Below, in pieces: positions 8,454 through 31,619 of a DNA stretch of 64,000 nt. Numbering within the stretch: the first letter of the stretch is position 1; every line of letters begins with the position of its first letter. The DNA is taken from the NCBI GenBank assembly GCA_947577185.1, contig CANPUE010000004.1, positions 93,688 through 157,687 of the forward strand, in the 5' to 3' direction. The stretch is from an uncultured Lachnospiraceae bacterium (GTDB lineage: Bacteria; Bacillota; Clostridia; Lachnospirales; Lachnospiraceae). The notes under the pieces are model-generated. The model did not search any database. It was given only the letters and a program-made list of their open reading frames with translations, and had not been told where the DNA came from. A program made the translations under genes and the position numbers.

Positions 8454-9713
8454 ATGGGCATTGGATTAACAGGTTTAAGCTCCGGTCTCGGAGATGTCTA
8501 TTCAAATTTATTAAGTTCCGGTTCTGCTTCTGCCGGCGGTGGAATGAGTGCTTTCGGCAGCACCACGCTGTTAAGTGATTATGCTTCGATCAAAAACGGC
8601 AGTTACGGCAAGATGATGAAGGCATACTATGAAAAGCAGAAAGCGGCAGACGATGAGGACGGTTCCTCTGTTTCCTCCAAAAACAAGACAAATGAAACGA
8701 AGGACGCCGCATCTGCCAGCGCTGCCAGAAAGTTCTATGAAACGGCTTCCGGAATGAAAAATCTCGATTACAGCGCGGATAATATCGACGAGCTGTATGA
8801 TAATGTGTCCGACTTTGTCAAAGATTATAATTCGCTGATCAAAAGCGCCTCCAAGAGCAAAAATGCTTCCGTACAGGCGCAGGCAGATGCCTTAAATGAT
8901 TATACTTACCAGAATTACAAATTATTTGCCAAGATCGGTATCACAATGAATTCTGACCGTACCCTGTCGATCAACGAAGATACCTTCAAAAAAGTAAATC
9001 AGAAAACCGGATCTACTAATGTTCCGACGATTAACACTTTGTTCCGGGGAATCGGTTCCTTTGCCGACAAGGCTGCCGACAGGGCAAGCAGAATTTACCG
9101 CACTGCAGGCGACGGGGAAGCGGTTACTTCTTCCAAAGCAAAGTACGCCGGCACAATGGGCAGCTATACAGCTGACAATAAGACAGAGAAAACAGACAGT
9201 ACTTCCTCCAATAAAGGCACTTCCAAGACTGCAAAGGATCCGGAATCAGCCAATCTGGCAAGTACGTTATACAAATCTGTTGAAAAACTGGGCGCTCTGT
9301 CGATTACTAACGACAATAAGGATGACGTTTATGATGCATTTTCTACTATGATTAAGGACTACAATGCCCTGATCAAAAAATCTTCGGAAAGTGAAAATTC
9401 CAATGTCATCAGACAGACAGATTATTTAAAGAATCTTGTGAGCGGCAATAAGAGTACATTCTCAAAAATGGGAATCACGATGAATTCCGATAAGACTCTT
9501 TCCATCGACGAGAACAAGTTTAAAGATTCCGATATGGGAAATGTGAAAAATCTGTTCGGAGGCGTCTATTCTTTTGCGGAGAAAATGACAGACAGGATCA
9601 ATCAGATTTATCGTTATGCCACACAGGGTCAGTCCTTAAATGCACAGACCTATACAAACCAGGGCGGTTACAGCGCTGCCGGCACCGGTTCCACACTCGA
9701 TACCACAATGTAA
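8454..9713 (+). CDS. protein with two tandem repeats resembling the C-terminal region of FliD
   Basis: FVKDYNSLIKSASKSKNASVQAQADAL...IGITMNSDRTLSINEDTFKK and MIKDYNALIKKSSESENSNVIRQTDYL...MGITMNSDKTLSIDENKFK; RBS AAAGGAGTGATATAC before the ATG. Confidence 0.6.
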   Translation: MGIGLTGLSSGLGDVYSNLLSSGSASAGGGMSAFGSTTLLSDYASIKNGSYGKMMKAYYEKQKAADDEDGSSVSSKNKTNETKDAASASAARKFYETASGMKNLDYSADNIDELYDNVSDFVKDYNSLIKSASKSKNASVQAQADALNDYTYQNYKLFAKIGITMNSDRTLSINEDTFKKVNQKTGSTNVPTINTLFRGIGSFADKAADRASRIYRTAGDGEAVTSSKAKYAGTMGSYTADNKTEKTDSTSSNKGTSKTAKDPESANLASTLYKSVEKLGALSITNDNKDDVYDAFSTMIKDYNALIKKSSESENSNVIRQTDYLKNLVSGNKSTFSKMGITMNSDKTLSIDENKFKDSDMGNVKNLFGGVYSFAEKMTDRINQIYRYATQGQSLNAQTYTNQGGYSAAGTGSTLDTTM

Positions 9714-9727
9714 ATACTGAATGATAA

Positions 9728-9762
9728 AAGAAAAAGCACCGGCTGGTGCTTTTTCTTTTGAC
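9728..9762. terminator. rho-independent terminator
   Basis: AAAAAGCACCGGCTGGTGCTTTTTCTTTTG. Confidence 0.75.
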
Positions 9763-9765
9763 TTT

Positions 9766-11250
9766 TTATGCGAAAGGATTCTCTGTCGGATACGGAAGAG
9801 ATTTCGGCTGATTATAACCGATCTCACTGACATCCACGCCGATATATTTGAATACTTCAAAGAGCGCTTTGCCGAAATGTCCAAAAGCAACGGCTCCGTG
9901 ATGAGGATAATTCTTCTCGATCAGTACGTGACGGTAGAATCTTCCCATCTCAGGTATCGCGAATACGCCGATGCCGCCAAAGGACTTCGTTGCTACCGGC
10001 AGGACTTCTCCCTCTGCCACGTACGCACGCAGAATATTGTCAGCCGTACTCTGTAAACGATAGAATGTGATATCACCGGGAACAATATCTCCTTCCAAAG
10101 TACCTTGCGTCACTTCTTCCGGAAGGCTTCTTGCCATGATCATCTGGTATTCCATACTGCACTTTGAAAGTTTTTTGGAGCAGGTATTGCCACAGTGGAA
10201 GCCCATGAACGTATCCGTATACTTGTAGTCGAACTTATTCTCAATCGCTTCTTTATACATATCCTTGGGTACGGAATTGTTGATGTCCAACAATGTAACG
10301 ATATCATCGCTGACAGCCTCTCCGATAAACTCGCTCAGGCATCCGTAAATATCCACTTCACAGGATACCGGAATTCCTCTTCCTGTCAGACGGCTGTTCA
10401 CATAGCAGGGAACAAATCCAAACTGTGTCTGGAATGCCGGCCAGCATTTTCCTGCGATCGCAACATACTCTCTGTAACCTTTGTGCCCTTCGATCCAGTC
10501 AAGAAGGGTCAGTTCATATTGTGCCAGTTTCGGCAGGATTTCCGGTTTGTTATTGCCGGCGCCAAGTTCTGCCTCCATGTCTTTTACTACATCCGGAATA
10601 CGTGCATCTTCTTCATGTTTATTAAATGCCTCGAACAGATCGAGTTCTGAGTTTTCTTCGATCTCCACGCCGAGATTGTAGAGCTGTTTGATCGGTGCGT
10701 TGCAGGCAAGGAAATTGAGCGGACGCGGGCCGAAAGAAATGATCTTTAAGCTGGAAAGCCCAATGATCGCACGTGCAATCGGAAGGAACTCATGAATCAT
10801 TTCCGCACAGTCCTGCGCGTCGCCTACCGGATATTCCGGAATATAAGCCTTTACATTACGAAGTTTCAGGTTATAGCTTGCATTGAGCATACCGCAGTAT
10901 GCATCGCCGCGTCCCTGGATCAGATCGTTCTGGGACTCTTCTGCCGCTGCTACAAACATCTTGGGTCCTTCAAAATGCTTTGCAAGCAGTGTCTCGGAAA
11001 TCTCCGGTCCGAAGTTGCCAAGATATACGCAGAGTGCGTTACATCCGTTTTCCCTGATATCCTTTAATGCATTAACCATATCGATTTCGCTCTCGATGAT
11101 GCAGACGGGACATTCATAAATATCAGCGGCATCGTATGCCTTATTATAGGCTTCCACCAAAGCCTTTCTTCTGTTAACTGCCAATGAGGCCGGGAAGCAG
11201 TCGCGGCTTACAGCCACAATACCGATCTTCACTTTGGGTAAATTGTTCAT
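9766..11250 (-). CDS. L-fucose/L-arabinose isomerase family protein
   Basis: 494 aa; start KVKIGIVAVSRDCFPASLAVNRR; C-terminal FGHFGKALFEVFKYIGV; adjacent to DUF4867-like and xylulokinase genes. Confidence 0.8.
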   Translation of the reverse strand: MNNLPKVKIGIVAVSRDCFPASLAVNRRKALVEAYNKAYDAADIYECPVCIIESEIDMVNALKDIRENGCNALCVYLGNFGPEISETLLAKHFEGPKMFVAAAEESQNDLIQGRGDAYCGMLNASYNLKLRNVKAYIPEYPVGDAQDCAEMIHEFLPIARAIIGLSSLKIISFGPRPLNFLACNAPIKQLYNLGVEIEENSELDLFEAFNKHEEDARIPDVVKDMEAELGAGNNKPEILPKLAQYELTLLDWIEGHKGYREYVAIAGKCWPAFQTQFGFVPCYVNSRLTGRGIPVSCEVDIYGCLSEFIGEAVSDDIVTLLDINNSVPKDMYKEAIENKFDYKYTDTFMGFHCGNTCSKKLSKCSMEYQMIMARSLPEEVTQGTLEGDIVPGDITFYRLQSTADNILRAYVAEGEVLPVATKSFGGIGVFAIPEMGRFYRHVLIEKNYPHHGAVAFGHFGKALFEVFKYIGVDVSEIGYNQPKSLPYPTENPFA

Positions 11251-11290
11251 ATATGTATCCTCCTTTAACCGGGGTTACCGGTAATGCTTT

Positions 11291-11914
11291 CTATTCTCTG
11301 ATATCCAGATTCTTTCCGATCAGTCCGATATGCGCACCTTCGTCCAATCCGCCTTCCGCATGTCCGATCAGCCATTTATTCTGTGCTGTGATGATAGCGT
11401 CCTCCCAGCCGTCATGTTTTTCTTTCAATGGATAATTCGTTCCTGCCGGCAGGACAATCCCCACCTTGAATCCATCCTCCCCCGCACTGCAGGGCGCATA
11501 GTGAAGCGTCGTCGCAAAAATTTCCGCCGCGGTTCCTGCGGGGAGCAAAAATGCTTCCATTTTTGACGTATCATAGGTGAAATCGTCTGTGATATCCTGC
11601 TGCATGCCGACGATCAGAACCGCATCCGTCGCCGCCACATTGATTTCGGAACTCCTGTGGTATTCCACCGCATTTAGTTTATAGTTATGTCCATTGCAGT
11701 AGCCTGCCTGTATCGGAAGTTCTCCGTAAGTCCTTCTCTGCAGTTCCTTCGCAGTCTGCGTAGATTCCAGAACCGATACCGAAGGTTCATAGGCTACGCC
11801 TTCCGGCAGAGGTGTTTCCTTTTTGATCGCCTCCACCAGTTCGCCAAAATCAATGCCCTGCACGACTCTGCCGTATTTGCGGAACGCGGGATCTGTAATC
11901 TTTTTAATTTCCAT
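11291..11914 (-). CDS. DUF4867 family protein
   Basis: YGELPIQAGYCNGHNYKLNAVEYHRSSEINVA and HYAPC motifs; located between the isomerase and kinase genes. Confidence 0.7.
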   Translation of the reverse strand: MEIKKITDPAFRKYGRVVQGIDFGELVEAIKKETPLPEGVAYEPSVSVLESTQTAKELQRRTYGELPIQAGYCNGHNYKLNAVEYHRSSEINVAATDAVLIVGMQQDITDDFTYDTSKMEAFLLPAGTAAEIFATTLHYAPCSAGEDGFKVGIVLPAGTNYPLKEKHDGWEDAIITAQNKWLIGHAEGGLDEGAHIGLIGKNLDIRE

Positions 11915-20525: not shown

Positions 20526-21890
20526 TCACGTTCTTGCCAACACCTCAAACGTCCTGCTGATATTCAGTTTGCCGTAGCCCCATCTCCGATCCGGATAGAT
20601 AATGTTGCTCTCCCGCACCGCCCCCCGGATCAGATCGCTCTTGATCGTCCGGCTCTCCGCATAGGGCGCATAACCGTCGACCACAGCCCATTCCATGAAC
20701 TGAGCTGCGCATCCGGCGGCGAGTGCTGCCGCCATGCTGGCGCCGGAGCGGCTCCCCAAAGCAGTGGAAACCTGTACGCCCGGCGCCGCCAGATCCGGCT
20801 TAATCGTGCTGTTGGCCGTAAACCCTCTCCCTGATTCGGAGAACCAGCTCCCGTTATGTCCATTATATGCGGAAACCGTGATCACATTTTTGGCGTTGGC
20901 GGGTTCCGTCAGCGTCACATCGGGGCTTGGTTCCAGAAATCTGGCTTCCCCGTCAATAAACTCTGTGATCGGAAGCCACAAATGGTATCTGCCGACATTG
21001 CGGACGCCGTCCTGTTCCGAAGGTGTCACAATTATGCTCCAAATACCGGGTGACGGATTCTCAAAGCGGAAAAAGATCAGTTCGTTGCCGGAACGTTTCT
21101 CAACCAATGACAGTCCTGTATAGATTTTGGTTCTGTCAAACAGAAAACTGTATTCATTGTCAGTCATATTACGGAAATCGATTACAGAAGTCATTTCTCC
21201 GCCCGGCGTGCGCAGTACCACACTGTAAATATCGATCCGGTTTCCCCAAAGTTCCATGCAAAACCCTTTTGTATTTTCTCCGACACGCAGTTCAATCTGT
21301 TCCGGCATCATCGCCGTATAATGATGCTCTTTATCTCCTTCATTGCCGCCGCAGACAACGACCGCCCTGCTCCTTCTTGTAGCGATCTGATCAAGATAGG
21401 ACGCCAACGGGGAGTTTCCTTCATGGTCTCCCATATTGGTGCCGATCCCCAGCACGATCACGACCGGCCTTTGAAATACAATCGCCATGCCCTCGAGATA
21501 TTTTACCGCTTCCATGATATCATTCTCCTGATAGGCCTCGGCGTCATCGTCGATCAGATAAAAATCTCTGAGATACTGTTTGGCTCCCTTTAGCTTTACA
21601 ACTGCGATATCCGAGCGCGGCGCGGCGCCTCGAAATGTCAGTCCCTGATCGATGATACTGCCTGCTGCCGCGGAGGCCATCGCAGTCCCGTGCCCGTTTT
21701 CATCCGTGGACGGTACAATCGTCAGCGGCTGGCCGCTCTGTATCGCGCGGTCAATCTCCTCCCGCTTATATTCCGTCCCGTATAAAAAACCTTCGGGCGG
21801 CTCTCCGGACTGTATCGTCTGATCCCATATCGAGAGGATTCTGCTGCTGCCGTCCTCATTCTTAAAGACATCCAGATCATATCGTATCCC
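20526..21890 (-). pseudogene. C-terminal part of an S8 (subtilisin-like, Csp-type) protease with catalytic His and Ser motifs, split by element 2
   Basis: Frame open from GIRYDLDVFKNEDGSSRILSIWDQ through NGHGTAMAS and RSGASMAAALAAG. The track starts it at 21680 but coding continues upstream to the GGGG core. Confidence 0.9.
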
Positions 21891-23121
21891 CTCTGGTGTT
21901 CAATAAATGCGGCTTCCATTGAATTGTGATCTGTTGTTCCTTATAAACGACGATCTTATCAACTGCGTTTTCGATCAGCTCCTTTGCAGATCCGCCGCCC
22001 TGTACGTTTGACTGCACCTGCAGGAGAACAGCTTCTTCCACAAACAGTGCATCGGCCCTGACCACACAGTCTTCCATTGCGCTAAAGTAACGTCGGGGAC
22101 AGGAAAAGTACGGGTTTTTTCCTCCGCGGCAGCGCAGATTGCTTTTGCAGGCGCCGCATACCAGCTTTCCGACAAGGGGATGTGTCCGGTTGTCGCGAGG
22201 CATCCGCCCCTTTCCCCGCCCCTTCTGTACCATATCAAAGATTTCCCTGTCGATAAGGGGTTCGTGATGCCCTCTGCCAACGAGCCATTGCGCACGGGGT
22301 TTTAAATGATTCTTTCCGCCGACAAAATCTTTTTCGTATTTTTTCTGTACAATGTTTCCGATGTAGACCTCATTTCTGAGAATCTGGCATATCGTACTAC
22401 TATTCCACAGAAACTTCTCTCCTTTGGGCACGCGGCTGGTCTTTCCCTTTTTTATCTTAAATTCAATGGGTGTCTGAACCTGCATCTCATTGAACATCCT
22501 TGCGGTCTCCACAGATGTGTACCCTTCCACCGCCAGAGAAAAAATCCACCTGACGATCTGTGCCTCGTCTTCCGCAATCACAAGCGCATGTCTGTCATCC
22601 GGGGATTTTTCATATCCAAACGGACTGTTTGCACTCACATACTGCCCCTTTTCTTTCCTGACAGCGAGCGAAGAACGCACCTTTACCGATATGTCTTTGC
22701 TGTACAGATCATACAGCAGGTTCTTAAAATTCACATCGATTCCGGCGCCGTTTCCCAAAAGAGCCGCACTGTCATAATGGTCATTGACAGAAATAAACCG
22801 AATCCCCAGAAACGGAAAGATCTGTTCCAGGTATGCGCCAAGCTCTATATAGTCTCTTGCAAATCTGGAAAAATCCTTCACAAGAATACAGTCGAGCTCA
22901 CGTTTTTTTGCCCTTTTCAAAAGTTCCCGCACCGCCGGGCGCTCGAAATTTGTGCCTGTATAACCGTCATCACAAAACTCCGTCAGTTCATACTCTGCGA
23001 AGTGTTCCGCGGCATATTTTCGCAGAAGGAGTCTCTGCGTGGTGATACTGCCGCTTTCATCTTTCGTTTTATCATCCTCTTTCGAGAGACGGATATAGAC
23101 CGCGATCCGACAGACTGCCAT
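21877..23121 (-). CDS. serine recombinase 3 of trio
   Basis: VCRIAVYIRLSKEDD, VKDFSRFARDYIELGAYLE, CGACKSNLRCRGG. Last codons (GDTI*) lie in S8-gene sequence. Confidence 0.93.
   Translation of the reverse strand: MAVCRIAVYIRLSKEDDKTKDESGSITTQRLLLRKYAAEHFAEYELTEFCDDGYTGTNFERPAVRELLKRAKKRELDCILVKDFSRFARDYIELGAYLEQIFPFLGIRFISVNDHYDSAALLGNGAGIDVNFKNLLYDLYSKDISVKVRSSLAVRKEKGQYVSANSPFGYEKSPDDRHALVIAEDEAQIVRWIFSLAVEGYTSVETARMFNEMQVQTPIEFKIKKGKTSRVPKGEKFLWNSSTICQILRNEVYIGNIVQKKYEKDFVGGKNHLKPRAQWLVGRGHHEPLIDREIFDMVQKGRGKGRMPRDNRTHPLVGKLVCGACKSNLRCRGGKNPYFSCPRRYFSAMEDCVVRADALFVEEAVLLQVQSNVQGGGSAKELIENAVDKIVVYKEQQITIQWKPHLLNTRGDTI
21896..21906 (+). repeat. element 2 left att arm (GTGTTCAATAA)
   Basis: Starts 5 nt inward of CCCC (21888-21891); inverted match to 31200-31210. 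Confidence 0.65.
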
Positions 23122-24880
23122 CCGAAACACCTTCCTTCCCGGAAAACAGGGGCCTCCTTCTGAAGGCAAAAATCACTCTCACCCGGTGATCCGGATGAAT
23201 TTCGATCCTGTCGATCAGTGCCCGTACCGCCTCTGCGGTCAGTGCCCCGTTTCCCTTCGTCATGTTCCTGAGAACCTGCTTTTTTTCAGCGCTCTGCGCT
23301 TGTGTCATCCTGAGGTTTTCTAAAACAGAAGCCTTCTCTTCCCGCAAAGAAACAATCTTTTTATCATTCTCTTTCTTTGCCTGTCTGAAACAGCCTTCGT
23401 CCATCTCCCCCATCCGGTATTGAAGATACTGTTCACTCCCATGCCGTATCAAACTCTCCAGCCTTTTTTCTAATGCTGTGAGTCTGCCGCCGCATTCTTT
23501 TTTCAGGATCTCCGTTTTTATCTCCATCTCTGTTTTCATTTCCATTTCTGTCTTCATTTCCATTTCTGTCTTCATTTCCATCTCTATCTCTATTTCTTTG
23601 TCACCGTATTCCGGCAGCGTCCGGGGACACATCGCGGACAAGGCGATTTCCTGCTGCAGTGCCTTTTTCACAAGTTCCGTAAGCGCGCACAGCGTTATGC
23701 GCTTCTTCTCACAGCGCCATCCGTCTATCCTCCCTGACCTGGGACAATGATAACTGTATGTCCTCACCCTGTCCTTTGAGCCCAGTTCTTTTACCGCACA
23801 GATCCGTTTCATTTTTGCTCCGCACTCACCGCAGTAGAGGACTTCCGCAAAGATATCCTCCTCCATGGGAACTTTTTTAGAAAATCCGTTTTTGTTACAG
23901 TACACACTGTTTTTTTCAAACTTTGCGGCCGCTTCAAAGAAACGTTCCTCACTGACAAGCGCCTGATGGGTATGCTCTTTTATCGACCAGTCCCCGGAAT
24001 CGATGTCGTGCCGCCCGCGCATCCTGTAGTCTTTCCCGCAGGTCCGCCCCTGGACCAGACAACCCATATACACCGGATTTGTCAGGATCCGTTTCACGGT
24101 AGCGTGCGGCCATTGTTCCAGCCTGCTCTGCTCCTGACAGTAAATCTCTCCTGTCTTATGGTACTGCGCAGGTCTGACGATCCTGTTTTCATAGAGCCAG
24201 ACAACAATCTCTTTCATGTTCCTGTCAGAAAGAAATAAGTCATATATCTTTTTTACAATGTCGGATGTGATTTCTTCCGCCATAAGGCATTTCCGATCTC
24301 CCATCCTCCCGATTCTGTATCCATACGGCGCCACACAGCCCGTATAGTTCCCCTGCTCCCACTGCGCTTTTCTGCTTGCCTTTACTTTTGTGGAAATGTC
24401 TCTCGCATACAGCTCATTTATCAGGTTTTTCAGGTGAAGACGAAACGCCTCATTGCGTCCTGACTGATTCATGCTGTCAAAATGGTCCGTGACAGCTATG
24501 AAGCGCACTCCCAGAAAAGGAAATATCTTTTCGATGTAGTTTCCTGTTTCAATATGATCCCTTCCCAGCCGGGACAGGTCTTTGACTACGATACAGTCAA
24601 TTTTGCGCATCCGCACGTCCCGCATCATCTGTTCAAACCCTTCCCGCTTAAAGTCTGTCCCGCTCTTCCCGATATCCATATAGCAGTCATATACTTCCAT
24701 GTCCCTGTGCTGTCCGATGAATGCTTTTGCAATTTCCACCTGCGCCGCAATCGATTCCCGCTTTCCTGCGTCCGCATCCACCGAGATCCTTGCATAGATG
24801 CCGACGGAAAACACCCGTTCCGGCTTCCCGCCTGCCAGTATAGTTACCGCCGCCTGTTCTCTTATCGATGACTCTGACAT
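23072..24880 (-). CDS. serine recombinase 2 of trio
   Basis: SVGIYARISVDADAGKRESIAAQ, VKDLSRLGRDHIETGNYIEK, CGECGAKM zinc ribbon. Confidence 0.93.
   Translation of the reverse strand: MSESSIREQAAVTILAGGKPERVFSVGIYARISVDADAGKRESIAAQVEIAKAFIGQHRDMEVYDCYMDIGKSGTDFKREGFEQMMRDVRMRKIDCIVVKDLSRLGRDHIETGNYIEKIFPFLGVRFIAVTDHFDSMNQSGRNEAFRLHLKNLINELYARDISTKVKASRKAQWEQGNYTGCVAPYGYRIGRMGDRKCLMAEEITSDIVKKIYDLFLSDRNMKEIVVWLYENRIVRPAQYHKTGEIYCQEQSRLEQWPHATVKRILTNPVYMGCLVQGRTCGKDYRMRGRHDIDSGDWSIKEHTHQALVSEERFFEAAAKFEKNSVYCNKNGFSKKVPMEEDIFAEVLYCGECGAKMKRICAVKELGSKDRVRTYSYHCPRSGRIDGWRCEKKRITLCALTELVKKALQQEIALSAMCPRTLPEYGDKEIEIEMEMKTEMEMKTEMEMKTEMEIKTEILKKECGGRLTALEKRLESLIRHGSEQYLQYRMGEMDEGCFRQAKKENDKKIVSLREEKASVLENLRMTQAQSAEKKQVLRNMTKGNGALTAEAVRALIDRIEIHPDHRVRVIFAFRRRPLFSGKEGVSDGSLSDRGLYPSLERG
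23508..23600. repeat. 18-bp tandem repeat encoding (MEMKTE)n inside recombinase 2
   Basis: TTTCCATTTCTGTCTTCA repeated; protein EIEMEMKTEMEMKTEMEMKTEMEIKTE. Confidence 0.9.
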
Positions 24881-26530
24881 TTAATGCACCCCCTCTTCGC
24901 AGCGCCTGCCGTTATCTGACTCACCTTCCGTCATATGCAGTCCGGCAGACAGTCCGTTATACCTTACAGTGACATGGATCCGACAGTCTTCATAAACAAA
25001 AATATGCTTCACAAATGTAATCAGCGTCGTTCTGTCAAGTGCGGTAATCTCAAACCCGCGCTTCATGCGCTCCAGATCAATGCCTGCCGCCGCGCCCGAC
25101 TGAAACAGCCTCTTTCTGGTCTCCTCCTGACGCTCCGCCGCCTGTTGCAGCTCATCGCAGCGTTTTTCAAAAATCCGGCTGTAATTTGTATAATCTTCTT
25201 CCGTAATAATCTTTTGCTCCAAGTCCGCAGAAAGGCCTGCACGCAGCTGTAAATAGTTATCCTGCTCCTGACGCAGCCGTTTGATCTGCGCACCAAAAAC
25301 CGCCGTTTCCTCAAAAGGGACGCGCATCCGCTTCAGCTCCGCCAGCACGCTGTCCTGATCCAGAAACAGTGCCGTCTGCTGTCTGAGCAGTGTCAGGAGC
25401 ACCATATTCAGATCTTCCTCCGGAATCCTGTGCCTGCTGCAGTCTCCGTCTGCATTTTTCCTGCCGCAGACAAAAACCGCCGTTTCCTTGCCATGTTTCC
25501 TGTTGACCCTTCGAGTCATTGGCTGTCTGCAGTCCCCGCAGAATAACAGGCCCGCATAAAGGTGCGCTTTTTTCTCTCCGGCTCCTGCGCGCACATCCAC
25601 CCTGAGCAGATCCTGCACGGTCTCGAAGTCCTCCCTGGAAACGACCGCCGCATGCGTTCCCGGCACTTTTATCCATTCTTCTTCCGGTTTTTTGACAATT
25701 TTATTGACCTTATAATTTATTTTTTCCGCTTTTCCCTGCACCAGCGTTCCGGTATAACACTCGTTTGTAAGGATCCTCCTGACGGCAACAGACGACCATC
25801 CGGTTCTGGCTCCCGCAGCAAACGTTGTCTGATACCGCTCGCCCCGCATCTTTTTATATTCCATCGGGGAAAGTACCCCCATCTCCTCCAGCCGCCGGGC
25901 AATCGCCAGACAGCTGTACCCTTCCAGCTTCCAGGCAAAGATCCGTTTCACGATACCGGCCGCATATGGATCCGGTATGAGCCGATTCCTGTTCTCACTG
26001 CTCTTTTGATATCCATAAACCGCAAACGAACCGATAAATTCTCCCCGTTCCCGCCTGAGTTTCTTTTGACTGCGCACCTTGGCCGAAATATCCTGTGCGT
26101 ACGAATCATTGACAAAATTCCTGACCGGCACGATGAGCGCAGTCTCGTCCGCATCCGCCGTCAGGGAATCAAAATGATCCGTGAGCGCGATGAATCGCAC
26201 ACAAAAAGCCGGGAAGGTCTTTTGAATCAACCGCCCGGCTTCTATATAGTCTCGTCCCAATCTGGATAAATCTTTTACGATCACGCAGTTCACGTTTCCC
26301 GCTTCGATATCTTTCATCATCCGTTTCAATCCGGGTCTGTCAAAATTTGTCCCGGAATAACCGTCATCTACATAAATATCGTAAATCTCCATGTTGTCCT
26401 GTTTTCTGACATACGATCGGATCATCTCTCTCTGTGAGCTGATGCTGTCGCTTTCCGCTTTGCTCCCATCCAGATCATCGCGGCTTAAACGCAGATACAT
26501 GGCCGCGTTATAAAATTCTGCTGCTTCCAT
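24881..26530 (-). CDS. serine recombinase 1 of trio
   Basis: NAAMYLRLSRDDLDGSKAESDSISSQ, VKDLSRLGRDYIEAGRLIQ, CGDCRQPM. Confidence 0.93.
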   Translation of the reverse strand: MEAAEFYNAAMYLRLSRDDLDGSKAESDSISSQREMIRSYVRKQDNMEIYDIYVDDGYSGTNFDRPGLKRMMKDIEAGNVNCVIVKDLSRLGRDYIEAGRLIQKTFPAFCVRFIALTDHFDSLTADADETALIVPVRNFVNDSYAQDISAKVRSQKKLRRERGEFIGSFAVYGYQKSSENRNRLIPDPYAAGIVKRIFAWKLEGYSCLAIARRLEEMGVLSPMEYKKMRGERYQTTFAAGARTGWSSVAVRRILTNECYTGTLVQGKAEKINYKVNKIVKKPEEEWIKVPGTHAAVVSREDFETVQDLLRVDVRAGAGEKKAHLYAGLLFCGDCRQPMTRRVNRKHGKETAVFVCGRKNADGDCSRHRIPEEDLNMVLLTLLRQQTALFLDQDSVLAELKRMRVPFEETAVFGAQIKRLRQEQDNYLQLRAGLSADLEQKIITEEDYTNYSRIFEKRCDELQQAAERQEETRKRLFQSGAAAGIDLERMKRGFEITALDRTTLITFVKHIFVYEDCRIHVTVRYNGLSAGLHMTEGESDNGRRCEEGVH

Positions 26531-26549
26531 CCGTCTTCCCCCGTCCACA

Positions 26550-26822
26550 CTATATCATGATCTGTGTCTTTCTCTCCGCAAGCAGGAGCACCCTGTCTTC
26601 GATCAGATCGGCCGCCCCTTCCGCGAAGCCTGTCTGTAAGATGTAGTTTCCGACCTTGAATGCATACGGATTTCCGGCCTGCCCGATAAAAGATCTCACG
26701 CGGCTCTCTACGCTCTTTTCGGTGTCGATCACAATGTCCTCTATCCTGACAAGTTCCTCCCGCTTCAAATCCATGATGTTCCTGTCCCGCATACGGTCCA
26801 GTTCTTCTGCTGACAGATTCAT
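26550..26822 (-). CDS. DUF6870-like recombinase-associated protein
   Basis: 90 aa, LVRIEDIVIDTEKSVESRVRSFIGQAGNPYAFKVGNYILQTGFAEGA; directly upstream of the recombinase trio. Confidence 0.65.
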   Translation of the reverse strand: MNLSAEELDRMRDRNIMDLKREELVRIEDIVIDTEKSVESRVRSFIGQAGNPYAFKVGNYILQTGFAEGAADLIEDRVLLLAERKTQIMI

Positions 26823-26879
26823 ATCCAGCCTCTTTTTATGATCTTAATCTCTACATATTTATTCCTGCCGCAATTTGTC

Positions 26880-28268
26880 CTATTCCATATGCTGCAAATG
26901 ACCCTTTGGCGGCTTTCTCCCATATCCGGTGATCACTGCCGCCAACAGCATCACCAGCATACACAGAGAATAATAATTCACAAACGGTACAGAGGCCGGC
27001 GCCACTGCAAACGATTCACCAAACTGCGCAGTCTGCTGCGCCGGGATCACACAGTGCACCGTCCAGGGTGCCAGGAAGCAGAAGACACAGCCTGTACAAT
27101 CCATCAGATTCGCCCGGCGGTACCGGTTCACCCCGGCTTTTTCCCCGATCTCACTGACCAGATCTCCGAGCGCCACAATAGCAACCGAAATTACCCCAGT
27201 CACCATACTCAGCAGACCTACAGATAAAATAATGGTCGCTTCTGTGCTCTGTTCTTTTTTTGCGAAGCGCTCCAAAAGCGCTCTCACATCCTCAAACAGA
27301 CCACTGCACTCCATCACACCCAATAGCGCAAACACCGCAATCAGCATGGCAACCGTTCCCGCAGTTCCCGAAATGGCTTCTATGACCGCTCCGGTCACCG
27401 AAAAGCCGCCGGGAAACGCGATGAGTTCATCAACCGTATAGACACCGGAAAGCAGTCCGGCGGCTGCTCCCGCCAAAATTCCCCAGGACAGGGCGGTGAT
27501 CAGGTGTTTCCGCATCATGCACAAAGTGATGATGACCGCAGGGACGATCAGCATGACCAGACTGAGCGGATCAACTTCTCCGCCCGCTGCACCGACTGCC
27601 GCGCCTCCGTCAGTCGTTTTGGAAAACAGCAGAAATAAGACAAGCGCCCCGGCTGCCGCAGGCAGACTGTAACGCGTCCTCGTCTTCACCACCATCCCCA
27701 GATCCGCATGCTGCGTCGCGGAAGATGCGATCGTCGTATCCGAGATCGGCCCCAGGTTATCGCCGAACGCAGCGCCCGACACAATGGCGCCGATCATAAA
27801 TTCCGGCGCTGCCCCCGCCATCACCCCTACCGGAAACAGGATCGGAATCACCACAAAATAGGTCCCCACCGAGGTGCCTGTCGCAAAGGCTAACAGGCAG
27901 GTAATGAGAAACGCCGCTGCCACGAAAAGTTTCCCTGTAAGACCGGCCGCCACCACATATGCCGCGATCGTCTGCACCGCGCCGCTGGCAGAGATCAGTT
28001 TGCCGGAAACCGCCGCCAGCATCACTGCCAGCACGATCACGGCAAACATTGGTTTGCTCAGGCCATATACCAATGCCTCTCCGTATGCCTTTTCATCCTT
28101 TGCAAAAACAACGCCTGTCACCAGTGCCGCAAAAAATGCAAGCACATACCCGTTGACATTGGACTGACTAAACGCCGCCCATCCGATCATTGCCGCCGCG
28201 GCAAGAAGCGGTGTCATTTTCCCGATCTTTCCCAGACGAAATTCTATCCTCTTTGCTTTCTGATCCAT
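26880..28268 (-). CDS. NhaC-type Na+/H+ antiporter family protein
   Basis: Polytopic; FATGTSVGTYFVVIPILFPVG, GAIVSGAAFGDNLGPISDTTIASSATQHADLG. Start trimmed to the ATG after AAAGGAG. Confidence 0.85.
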   Translation of the reverse strand: MDQKAKRIEFRLGKIGKMTPLLAAAAMIGWAAFSQSNVNGYVLAFFAALVTGVVFAKDEKAYGEALVYGLSKPMFAVIVLAVMLAAVSGKLISASGAVQTIAAYVVAAGLTGKLFVAAAFLITCLLAFATGTSVGTYFVVIPILFPVGVMAGAAPEFMIGAIVSGAAFGDNLGPISDTTIASSATQHADLGMVVKTRTRYSLPAAAGALVLFLLFSKTTDGGAAVGAAGGEVDPLSLVMLIVPAVIITLCMMRKHLITALSWGILAGAAAGLLSGVYTVDELIAFPGGFSVTGAVIEAISGTAGTVAMLIAVFALLGVMECSGLFEDVRALLERFAKKEQSTEATIILSVGLLSMVTGVISVAIVALGDLVSEIGEKAGVNRYRRANLMDCTGCVFCFLAPWTVHCVIPAQQTAQFGESFAVAPASVPFVNYYSLCMLVMLLAAVITGYGRKPPKGHLQHME

Positions 28269-28284
28269 TCTGATACTCCTTTGC

Positions 28285-30831
28285 TTACTTTTTTCGATCA
28301 TCGCTGACCGCTCCCGGTTCTGATTCGACCGGATCCATGAGCAGGCCCGGTATTTTCATCTCCATCAAATGCTGCATCTGCATGATTTGATTTCCTGAGA
28401 TAAATCCGTCAGGCAAAAAAGCATTCCGCAGATTGGCCCCTCTCAAATCTGCTCCGTTTAAATCTGCTCCACTCAAATCCGCTTCTCCCAGATCTGCTTC
28501 CCTTAAATTTGCTCCCGCAAAACGAACGCTTCTTAAATCTGATTTTCTCAGATCTGCTTCTCTTAAATCTGCCTTTTTTAAATTGGCTCCGCTTAAATCT
28601 ATTGCGCTCAGATCCACTCCGGCTAACTGTAATCCCTCAAAATCTGCCTTACTGGTTAAGCTGAGATTTCTTTCTTTAACACGTGATGGAACCAAAACAA
28701 AGATTTCTCTAAAGTTATGTTTTAATATGTCTTCCCTGTTAATGCATTCGACATCATGATACCAGCCGATGCACTCCCCTTCTTTCAGACAGGGTTCCAG
28801 CGCACATCTGAATATCCTCACAGTATTCGTCAAAACATTGATCATATTATGGTAGACATTTTCCCCCGAATTTCTATTATAATGGTTTATTCCCCCAAAT
28901 TGCAGCATATCCGAAAAAAAATGGGGTAAATAGTTCCGCCTGCGTTCCTCAAAAATAAAATCCAGCTTATACTGATGTTCTTCACTGTACTTTATGCGCA
29001 GATATAAAAATTCCAGTACTTTTTCAGGTAATTGCATGGATCGGAACAAATCATGGATCTGCCCTGTAATATAGGCAGTCACTTCCTGTATCTCCATTGT
29101 CTCACAGATCTGATACATCGCATTCAATTCATAAAATATCTTTTCACAAAGAAAAAAATCTCTGATATTATTATGATAGAACTCCACCGCACCTTTTCCA
29201 TTCGTTTTCCAATAATTACATAATGCGTAACAATGCTGTACAATTTCTTTTAGTTTTAATTCCTCAATCCCCAGCTGATCAACGATTTTTGATATTTCCC
29301 TGCTGGTCAGAAATAATTTTCTGTTGCCGCTGCAAAACATCTGATACGCGATTTCCGCACTCAAACGATACAATAGGCCTTTGTATTTTTTTATCCCATG
29401 ATGATAAACGCCGTTTCCGTTAGCAAACACAGAATTGTACTCTGTGTCAGATAGTTCTTTATAAAAGATCCGGCGGTACAAAAGCCATTTATTGTGCTTT
29501 GCTTCTTCGCTGATTCCCCCCGCCGCAATCATATACATGATCATTGGTGTATCACATATGCTGTCTGTTTCTTCATTCTCTTCGTCCACAATATACGCTA
29601 TTCCTGTTTTCTCACAATCTGACAGCCCCGTTTTTCGATACTTTTCTACCCACTCCCACCTTTGGAACGCATCAAAATGTCTCAATGCAATATATCCTTT
29701 TCTAATATCCAGCCTGTCCACGTCCAGGTATTGGGGTCTGGTCGTAACGATCATTTTATAATCCCTAAATGCGTCAAAAATCTGATAAATATAATACTCC
29801 GAGTTTGCATTGATGCCTTCCACCATGCAGAGTTCATCAAATCCGTCAAATACAATGAGCGGATTTTTATAATGTCTCTTAAATTCATCCACAGATCCTA
29901 ATCTCAAATACTTTAAAATATCGTTTACGATTGTATCACTGGAAAATCTCATTTCCTCAGGAATAATGTCCCTCAGTCTGATGCATAAAAGCGTTTTATC
30001 TGAAAAAAGCCTCTGCCATTCCTCTTTCTTTTCTATGTAAAGATACGACAGATAAGATACCAGACTCGTTTTTCCAACGCCTGCATCACCTTCAATGAAT
30101 AAAATCTCCCCCTGATGCCTCTCATCCCGAATAACATGCATGGCAAATCTGCTCATAAAGTCAACTGCATTTCCGCCGACTCCCCGCGTCAAATCCGAAT
30201 CTTTCGTCCAGTTCACATAATGAGGCAGTACAAACAGATCTTTCAGCCGCACGTTCTTACTGCCCTCTTCCCTGTGAAGGAACAGATTTTCTACAAAGCT
30301 GTTATAATATTGTTCATTTGTATCCCATACGCCTTCCCCGTCGGCGCTCTTTTCCCACTTCTCCTTCCTGTTTTCCTTTTTCACCGCATATAAAAAAACA
30401 GAAGCCAGAAAGCCGCTGATCCTGTCTTCCTCTGCCCTCTGTAACAATTCTTTTTTCTTTGATTCAGGAATCCCTGTATCCCCCTGAATCAGTTTCACCA
30501 TGTTTTGCATCAGATCATCCCGCAGATGCGATGAAAGAACAGGTACTACTTCTTTCTCAAAAATATTGTCTATTTGATTGATTACAGGCTCCGAGTCACA
30601 GTTGTCCCGGATACTGCTGTGAACATTCTCTCTGTTATGCAACAGATTACTTGCCATTGTTTTGTCCACGTCAATTGCGTGTCCTTTTCTGCCGCGGGCT
30701 TCATACACCGTCCCCCTGAGCATTAAAATTTCCAGCAAAAGGCGCGTAAGTTCAAGGTCCTGATCATATGGTTTCTGCATTGCCATTTTCAGGCATTTTA
30801 CATAGGATGCAAACGATACTCTTTCCTCCAT
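28285..30831 (-). CDS. NACHT-type STAND NTPase with C-terminal pentapeptide repeats
   Basis: Walker A EGDAGVGKTSLVSYL; Walker B PLIVFDGFDEL; TTRPQYL sensor; C-terminal GANLKKADLREADLRKSDL...ADLSGADLNGADLRGANL. Confidence 0.88.
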   Translation of the reverse strand: MEERVSFASYVKCLKMAMQKPYDQDLELTRLLLEILMLRGTVYEARGRKGHAIDVDKTMASNLLHNRENVHSSIRDNCDSEPVINQIDNIFEKEVVPVLSSHLRDDLMQNMVKLIQGDTGIPESKKKELLQRAEEDRISGFLASVFLYAVKKENRKEKWEKSADGEGVWDTNEQYYNSFVENLFLHREEGSKNVRLKDLFVLPHYVNWTKDSDLTRGVGGNAVDFMSRFAMHVIRDERHQGEILFIEGDAGVGKTSLVSYLSYLYIEKKEEWQRLFSDKTLLCIRLRDIIPEEMRFSSDTIVNDILKYLRLGSVDEFKRHYKNPLIVFDGFDELCMVEGINANSEYYIYQIFDAFRDYKMIVTTRPQYLDVDRLDIRKGYIALRHFDAFQRWEWVEKYRKTGLSDCEKTGIAYIVDEENEETDSICDTPMIMYMIAAGGISEEAKHNKWLLYRRIFYKELSDTEYNSVFANGNGVYHHGIKKYKGLLYRLSAEIAYQMFCSGNRKLFLTSREISKIVDQLGIEELKLKEIVQHCYALCNYWKTNGKGAVEFYHNNIRDFFLCEKIFYELNAMYQICETMEIQEVTAYITGQIHDLFRSMQLPEKVLEFLYLRIKYSEEHQYKLDFIFEERRRNYLPHFFSDMLQFGGINHYNRNSGENVYHNMINVLTNTVRIFRCALEPCLKEGECIGWYHDVECINREDILKHNFREIFVLVPSRVKERNLSLTSKADFEGLQLAGVDLSAIDLSGANLKKADLREADLRKSDLRSVRFAGANLREADLGEADLSGADLNGADLRGANLRNAFLPDGFISGNQIMQMQHLMEMKIPGLLMDPVESEPGAVSDDRKK

Positions 30832-30984
30832 TCCGATATCCCTTTGTATTTCAATTCATGTGCCAGTCATCTGCCCCATCTCCCGTATCCCGGATGGAAG
30901 CCCAACTATGCCCCAACTCCATGGTAACTACTTTCCTCCTCTCCCGTGTTATCCTGTAAGAAACAGACAGAAAGGAAAAACACA

Positions 30985-31155
30985 ATGGAAAATATCATCC
31001 CCTTAATCTTTTCACTCGTCGGCCCGGATCATTTATTGTCCGCCATTGCGCTTATTGTTTTCATTCTGATCCTGATCCAAAAAGGAAGGATCAAAATATG
31101 TTTCGACATAAAAAACGGGAAAATAAAAATAAGGATGCAATATCACCATAAATAA
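30985..31155 (+). CDS. 56-aa single-TM protein
   Basis: MENIIPLIFSLVGPDHLLSAIALIVFILILIQKGRIKICFDIKNGKIKIRMQYHHK, preceded by AGAAAGGA. Confidence 0.5.
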   Translation: MENIIPLIFSLVGPDHLLSAIALIVFILILIQKGRIKICFDIKNGKIKIRMQYHHK

Positions 31156-31199
31156 GCAGGCCAAAACAGGTAACGTCCCATACCTCTCCAGCCTTACGG

Positions 31200-31210
31200 T
31201 TATTTAACAC
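31200..31210 (-). repeat. element 2 right att arm (GTGTTAAATAA on minus strand)
   Basis: Starts 5 nt inward of the core at 31215-31218; inverted match to 21896-21906. Confidence 0.65.
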
Positions 31211-31214
31211 ATAA

Positions 31215-31538
31215 CCCCGTATCCACAAAACCAATGATCACACCGTCTCCCTGCAGTTCCAGCGGCGGGCCCTGCACCCGCAGATTGCCCGTCTCGACCA
31301 GATTGTCTGCCTGAAACGTCTGCATCAGCCCATACAGGTCAGGAATGGAGGCATACGTGTAAGTTCCCAAAGAAACCGGCGGAAGCTCCGCTCTCTCCAA
31401 ATACGCGATTGAAAATTCTTCATCGAACGGCTGAAAGCAAAAGTCAATATTCCATCGATTCAGAGTGCCCTCCGGCAGTCTGTAATCTATGATGACGTCC
31501 GCATAGTCGTTTGACAGGATTCTTTCTTTACATGTCAT
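31215..31538 (-). pseudogene. N-terminal part of the S8 protease (108 aa ending GVIIGFVDTG), split by element 2
   Basis: MTCKERILSNDYADVIIDYRLPEG...GPPLELQGDGVIIGFVDTG is the Csp-type S8 N-terminus with catalytic Asp motif; LCVK* tail is element sequence. Confidence 0.9.
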
Positions 31539-31619
31539 ATCATTTCCGCACTTTCACACTGAACAGCTTATTATATGGTATGCTGCTGCAAAGCCGGCGG
31601 CAATGCCATTCTTACTTTT

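Follow-up and report, generated by a model that had tools for sequence, protein, structure and literature searches.

Serine-recombinase cassettes interrupt S8 protease genes of Lachnospiraceae at the glycine codon of the catalytic motif: possible opening and repair of a protease gene during sporulation

Introduction

To our knowledge, only a handful of developmental gene-splitting elements have been found, each in one gene of one lineage. In Bacillus cereus ATCC10987, gerE is interrupted by gin, an element with three serine recombinases and no phage genes, the excision of which needs only GirC and GirX (PMC5595907). The skin-Cd element in sigK of Clostridioides difficile relies on a constitutive recombinase and a 72-aa recombination directionality factor (RDF) that is driven by sigmaE and SpoIIID (PMC5025042). 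In Bacillus subtilis, where SP-beta interrupts spsM, SprA and SprB are the minimal pair that restores the spore gene in the mother cell (PMC4191935). The main text of a survey of serine integrase targets names conserved genes of other kinds (PMC10083194), and a search of literature outside subscription journals found no published account of DUF6870 or of elements that target S8 or csp genes. Here we describe an S8 protease gene of an uncultured Lachnospiraceae bacterium that is split by a cassette with three serine recombinases, and the family of insertions to which it belongs.

Results

The window, the whole 64,000-nucleotide stretch of DNA that was analyzed, contains a minus-strand S8 protease gene of 561 aa that is interrupted after VDTG by a 9,327-bp element. 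The first-pass annotation had reported this split, and its coordinates and open reading frames agree with ours. The parts of the gene are as follows.

31567..31583, minus strand: GCATACCATATAATAAG, upstream of the S8 start; CATAnnnT-type -10 kept in most genus orthologs
31215..31538, minus strand: N-terminal part of the S8 protease; 108 codons, the last four reading VDTG; aligns to the intact ortholog of genome G036
20526..21890, minus strand: C-terminal part of the S8 protease; 453 codons follow the Gly, then a stop; contains GHGT and SGASMAA

The open reading frame of the N-terminal fragment (31538..31200) runs four codons beyond the junction into the element (LCVK-stop). In the C-terminal part the first in-frame start does not come before 21680, and this part would therefore yield no active product on its own. 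When both parts are joined at the shared GGGG, one open frame of 561 aa results, which includes GFVDTGIRYDLDVF and has the catalytic D, H (GHGT), and S (SGASMAA), so that the in-frame restoration of a complete triad claimed for this gene is exact. The intact gene of G036 matches both fragments at adjacent coordinates (N-terminal part, 72% identity; C-terminal part, 81%), and the objection that the fragments might come from different proteases thus fails. Further S8 genes are present in the window's genome, the assembly of which is an incomplete draft (67% complete).

Comparison with related genomes, which had been proposed as a check, showed that the gene is whole in nearly all of them. The C-terminal part was found in 76 of 78 genus genomes (E≤1e-30), nearly always within a single open frame of ∼555 to 597 aa, and short S8 frames (∼460 aa) were present only in G000 (the genome of the window), G035, and G011. 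The S8 genes of G035 and G011 are interrupted at the same codon as that of the window, by different elements. Related genomes with the same split thus have element ends at the same site, and the concern that such a split might occur without them does not apply. A GCATATCATAnnaTAAG block, which holds the CATAnnnT-type -10, is kept upstream of the S8 start in most genus orthologs. The window's C-terminal fragment is under purifying selection like intact orthologs: its pN/pS against the closest orthologs (0.15 to 0.19, with synonymous sites nearly saturated) is similar to that of intact pairs at like distance. Intact-like pN/pS and open frames would be expected if the insertion is recent but also if the gene is still in use.

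Among curated S8 models, CspBA and CspC match the restored protein best. However, the C-terminal part reaches only 232 of 1250 and 200 of 675 bits, respectively, far below the NCBIfam cut-offs for membership, so the Csp-type assignment made at first holds in the form "Csp-like."

The element that separates the two parts has the following features.

21888..31218, minus strand: whole element, 9,327 bp; all genes on the minus strand
31205..31224, minus strand: attL, GGATACGG joined to GGTTATGTGTTA; the GG core has host sequence on its left and element sequence on its right; other elements have homologous ends
28285..30831, minus strand: NACHT/STAND NTPase with pentapeptide repeats, 848 aa, cargo (Pfam NACHT 3e-8, Pentapeptide 6e-21)
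26880..28301, minus strand: NhaC-like Na+/H+ antiporter, 473 aa, cargo (PF03553 2e-22; TIGR00931 below cut-off)
26857..26883, minus strand: promoter-like motif ATAGGACAAATTGCGGCAGGAATAAAT, upstream of DUF6870; -35 half perfect, -10 half imperfect
26550..26822, minus strand: DUF6870, 90 aa, core gene, candidate RDF (PF21757 1.7e-19); conserved upstream of recombinases
24881..26548, minus strand: large serine recombinase A, 555 aa (Resolvase, Recombinase, and Zn ribbon; YLRLS motif)
23072..24880, minus strand: large serine recombinase B, 602 aa (domain search)
21877..23169, minus strand: large serine recombinase C, 430 aa, adjoins attR (domain search)
21883..21901, minus strand: attR, GAACACCAGAGG joined to GGATACG; the GG core has element sequence on its left and host sequence on its right

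The element thus brings its own site-specific recombinases, as the first-pass annotation had supposed. Recombinase C crosses the right junction, and its final codons and stop are host sequence. It is likely to be the integrase, because it is the sole recombinase kept with DUF6870 in a 2.1-kb element at locus L062. Searches with Pfam and NCBIfam models detected no phage structural or replication genes among the element's six large genes and no relaxase or conjugation genes among its genes, and the readings as a prophage or a conjugative element were rejected on these grounds. The best match to a Ccr recombinase, CcrB, scored 99.7 of the 900 bits of the curated cut-off, and the insertion lies in S8 rather than at the rlmH 3' end used by SCC-type cassettes. 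The predicted model of DUF6870 (pLDDT 84) had no PDB match.

PADLOC analysis of element cargo gave only a weak HamA-like match and one type II restriction-modification pair. The former is an N-terminal match of the 848-aa NACHT/pentapeptide-repeat protein to HamA (DUF1837; 1.8e-5), a possible defense gene; the latter is the restriction enzyme and methyltransferase carried by the G035 element (L036:4195-5896).

A serine-recombinase cassette has been inserted precisely in the catalytic motif of the window's S8 gene, and this motif is targeted across the family. A scan of one genome per species, queried with three C recombinases, returned 79 loci. In 44 of the 58 clade I loci, which are those outside a separate sister clade, the flanking sequence is an S8 gene interrupted at the window's codon, and once other genomes were added there were 46 distinct insertions at the identical codon in Lachnospiraceae and related Clostridia. 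The codon is that of the Gly in the catalytic Asp-Thr/Ser-Gly motif, and the element module consists of DUF6870 and three large serine recombinases. The interrupted genes range from Csp-like to AprX-like, with identities down to 28%. N-terminal fragments ending at this codon were found in G035, G034, and G014 within the genus and likewise in G349, G391, and G207 from other genera of the family. Recombinases of the G035 and G011 elements are only 54 to 68% identical to those of the window, and the cargo is different. At other loci (L058 and L060; L051 and L052) near-identical recombinases lie in different S8 genes, and the elements therefore move. A full-length open frame is kept in 32 of 36 S8 C-terminal fragments examined; the exceptions are short (L064 and L080), somewhat shortened (L083), or end at a contig edge (L055).

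At left junctions, host GA(T/C)-(ACG, ACA, AGT, TCA, TCC, or TCG)-GG is followed by element GGAGYGTGTTATTATATTGTC or similar, and at right junctions, element (C/T)TTGACAGGAGAG or similar precedes GG and then host N-ATH-GAY-TAY. The base after GG is always G in attL, where it derives from the element, and may be A, C, G, or T in attR, where it derives from the host. As read from these junctions, the core common to both parents in all cases is only GG, with which the Gly codon begins. The GGGG described earlier is indeed present at both junctions of the window, but it is ruled out as the core: its outer bases vary with the host or the element in other insertions, and two of its matches are coincidental.

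Target choice is not absolute, in that one relative with a matching right end (L093:11679) apparently lies in a polysaccharide deacetylase gene. Some interrupted S8 genes (L070, L078, and L128) are without GHGT, and pseudoproteases may be targets too.

Elements of the sister clade (L107 to L127) end, in 9 of 19 loci, at GG in G-Y-G-A-L-C-V-x-x-S-L-P, a C-terminal motif of other S8 proteins. In L114, the upstream S8 gene runs on into an element-supplied AYGIIVSS-stop. Such triple-recombinase elements at the 3' end of S8 genes, for example in L114 (4640-4800) and L117 (11741 and 18271), sometimes form tandem arrays and have element-supplied replacement tails. One S8 gene, in L066 (10656-11993, 18017-20087), appears to be interrupted at both the DTG motif and the 3' end; its C-terminal fragment has a tail like those of the sister clade, and beyond it lies another set of recombinases.

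Among elements represented by enough sequence, nearly all have DUF6870 directly before recombinase A. One element (L071, 5.5 kb) consists only of DUF6870 and recombinases A, B, and C, and the L062 mini-element (9333-11467), both ends of which are intact, holds DUF6870 and recombinase C alone, a set that recalls GirC and GirX of gin and SprA and SprB of SP-beta.

The sequence ATA[AG]GACA-N14-TAnnnT was found upstream of DUF6870 in 38 of 50 elements (20 of 31 when nonredundant; mean of shuffles, ∼0), although the surrounding sequence is largely unalignable, and 36 of its 46 matches in 2.6 Mb (both strands) are ≤90 bp from DUF6870. In the window's copy, the -35 half is perfect and the -10 half, AATAAATA, is imperfect. 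Written as ATA-N17-(C/A)ATAnnnT, the motif has sigmaE spacing; spoIVA upstream regions of the genus have ATA-N16-CATACATT. The SpoIIID box of B. subtilis is WWRRACARNY, and the embedded TAGGACAATC fits it. The fit to the C. difficile box, KRTAACARK (PMC5025042), is less good. The sigmaE promoter of C. difficile spoIIID is ATA-N16-CATATATA (PMC3789822). At the level of sequence, the motif thus resembles a sigmaE promoter that has a SpoIIID-like box within it. A sigmaA promoter was rejected, as the TT of TTGACA is absent and a spacer of 14 is too short, and a sigmaK promoter was rejected for an AC-to-CATA spacing that is too short. Only 3 of 21 regions upstream of S8 genes had the motif, a weak test, and coregulation of S8 and DUF6870 by one motif was dropped. 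The motif also precedes DUF6870 in the sister clade (clade II), whose position at the 3' end of S8 genes makes a need for excision less evident; it is therefore a family trait and not proof that it regulates the insertion in the window.

Of 397 genomes of the family, from 334 genera, 247 had both the S8 family (counted at E≤1e-60) and spoIVA; 4 had S8 alone, 13 had spoIVA alone, and 133 had neither (odds ratio, 632; the statistic ignores phylogeny, but most genera were sampled once). Within the genus, spoIVA is present in 72 of 78 genomes, including four insertion hosts (G011, G014, G034, and G035); the 67%-complete assembly of the window itself yielded neither spoIVA nor spoIIID. In C. difficile, the csp operon, which includes cspBA, is controlled by sigmaE (PMC3789822). 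The co-occurrence with spoIVA and the Csp-like similarity indicate that the Csp-like S8 family is linked to sporulation; AprX-like targets fall outside this test.

N-terminal pieces of spoIIID (about codons 1 to 42) occur several times in tandem per contig in L154, L155, L156, L157, L158, and L159 (G009, G046, G048, G070, and G064), and on G009:C92 a C-terminal piece of spoIIID (34 to 79) adjoins a different serine recombinase. It looks as if spoIIID is another recurrent insertion site in this genus.

Discussion

The window's element shares several properties with gin: it is not a phage, it has three serine recombinases and a variable cargo that can include restriction-modification genes, and it splits a sporulation-related gene in frame. 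A small separate factor, for which DUF6870 is the candidate here, is required for the excision of gin. However, gin is in gerE, with a 9-bp shared sequence and a predicted AA core; girAB and the distant girC are not one operon; and GirX has 42 aa. The family described here has one DUF6870-A-B-C module, a GG core, and a whole protease family as its target. Skin-Cd is similar in its serine recombinase, in an interrupted spore gene, and possibly in a small RDF under sigmaE and SpoIIID, for which DUF6870 and its upstream motif are the candidates here. Yet it is prophage-like, with one recombinase and sigK as the target, and its RDF, CD1234, is not known to be related to DUF6870. The SprA and SprB pair of SP-beta is mirrored by the mini-element with DUF6870 and recombinase C; SP-beta differs as an active phage with a single target gene. 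SCC cassettes, which are also non-phage and have several large serine recombinases, resemble the element in weak matches to the CcrB and CcrC models and in the location of clade II at a gene 3' end, but the element is far below the Ccr cut-offs, the target is S8 and not rlmH, and clade I disrupts the gene. CspBA and CspC, the nearest curated models for the restored protein and products of a sigmaE mother-cell gene in C. difficile, differ from it in that it scores far below their cut-offs and is a single-domain protease with a complete triad.

As in sporulation gene-intervening elements, a coding sequence is interrupted with exact in-frame restoration and the element has its own recombinases; the target is spore-linked by spoIVA co-occurrence and Csp-like similarity only. 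The comparison with skin-type intervening sequences was apt, but the exact restoration on which it leaned is by itself no evidence of regulation, because every serine-integrase insertion restores its target exactly on removal.

These results suggest that the S8 gene is opened by the cassette and made whole again in the course of sporulation. According to this model, serine recombinases would integrate a non-phage cassette at GG within the Asp-(Thr/Ser)-Gly codons of S8 genes, and the protease would be off while the cassette is integrated, because neither fragment alone has the full catalytic triad. In the sporulating cell, mother-cell sigmaE, probably with SpoIIID, would turn on DUF6870, which as a directionality factor would direct recombinase C to excise the cassette. 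The gene would be rejoined in frame, the mother cell would make a Csp-like protease for the spore, and the germ line would retain the cassette. We infer the role of DUF6870 as directionality factor, the action of the motif as a sigmaE promoter, and the place of excision in the mother cell. That the element is a gin/skin-type cassette excised in the mother cell through DUF6870 is the reading that we favor and, in our judgment, marginally probable, and whether excision is regulated at all we rate as an even question. The failure to see an excised junction or a circle counts against this model: the window's own assembly contains no attP junction, and an attP pattern scan of IMG/VR gave four matches that are due to chance, in coding sequence without recombinases. 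In addition, the -10 half of the window's own motif is imperfect, several targets are AprX-like S8 genes outside the sporulation co-occurrence test, and no solved fold resembles DUF6870.

It is quite possible, if on the doubtful side, that the element is a selfish, SCC-like cassette for which S8 genes are a conserved, vegetatively dispensable harbor. The cassette would then leave only randomly or on transfer, and the protease would be dead in carriers, with paralogs or other pathways compensating. The elements do move between very different S8 genes and hosts, the cargo varies (restriction-modification and NTPase genes included), a sister clade occupies the S8 3' end, the genome has additional S8 genes, and serine integrases are often directed at a single conserved gene (PMC10083194). 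However, the interrupted S8 fragments do not decay, a sporulation-like motif is conserved upstream of the candidate directionality gene, and the target family is linked to sporulation. The intact fragments could alternatively reflect a recent insertion. A stochastic switch, in which the cassette exits and reenters in a minority of vegetative cells and yields spores with and without the protease, would agree with the reversible chemistry and exact restoration and with the empty and filled sites found side by side among close species; a mixed state is not visible in the assembly, and we regard such a switch as improbable. Although the window's genome is an incomplete draft, an assembly artifact or a pair of unrelated protease fragments is scarcely credible: a single ortholog fits both fragments, and the same junction type recurs in isolates and metagenome-assembled genomes of independent projects, a recurrence that already refutes it.

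Excision in the mother cell may extend well beyond the window. Our more tentative proposal, which we hold at somewhat less than even confidence, is a system common to the Lachnospiraceae in which DUF6870, controlled by sigmaE and SpoIIID, excises catalytic-motif cassettes in the mother cell and so gates a germination or spore protease by DNA rearrangement in many gut species, the targeting of protease genes having arisen at two S8 motifs. Across dozens of gut Lachnospiraceae, one recombinase family is addressed to the active-site codon of an entire family of proteases, and the Csp-like targets track sporulation. If excision is timed by sporulation, germination-type proteases of gut commensals would commonly be controlled at one further level, that of DNA rearrangement, and a function could be assigned to DUF6870. 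Without such timing, these elements still represent a group of recombinases that accept differing codons in attB as long as a protein motif is conserved, a tolerance that may help to explain how integrases choose conserved genes.
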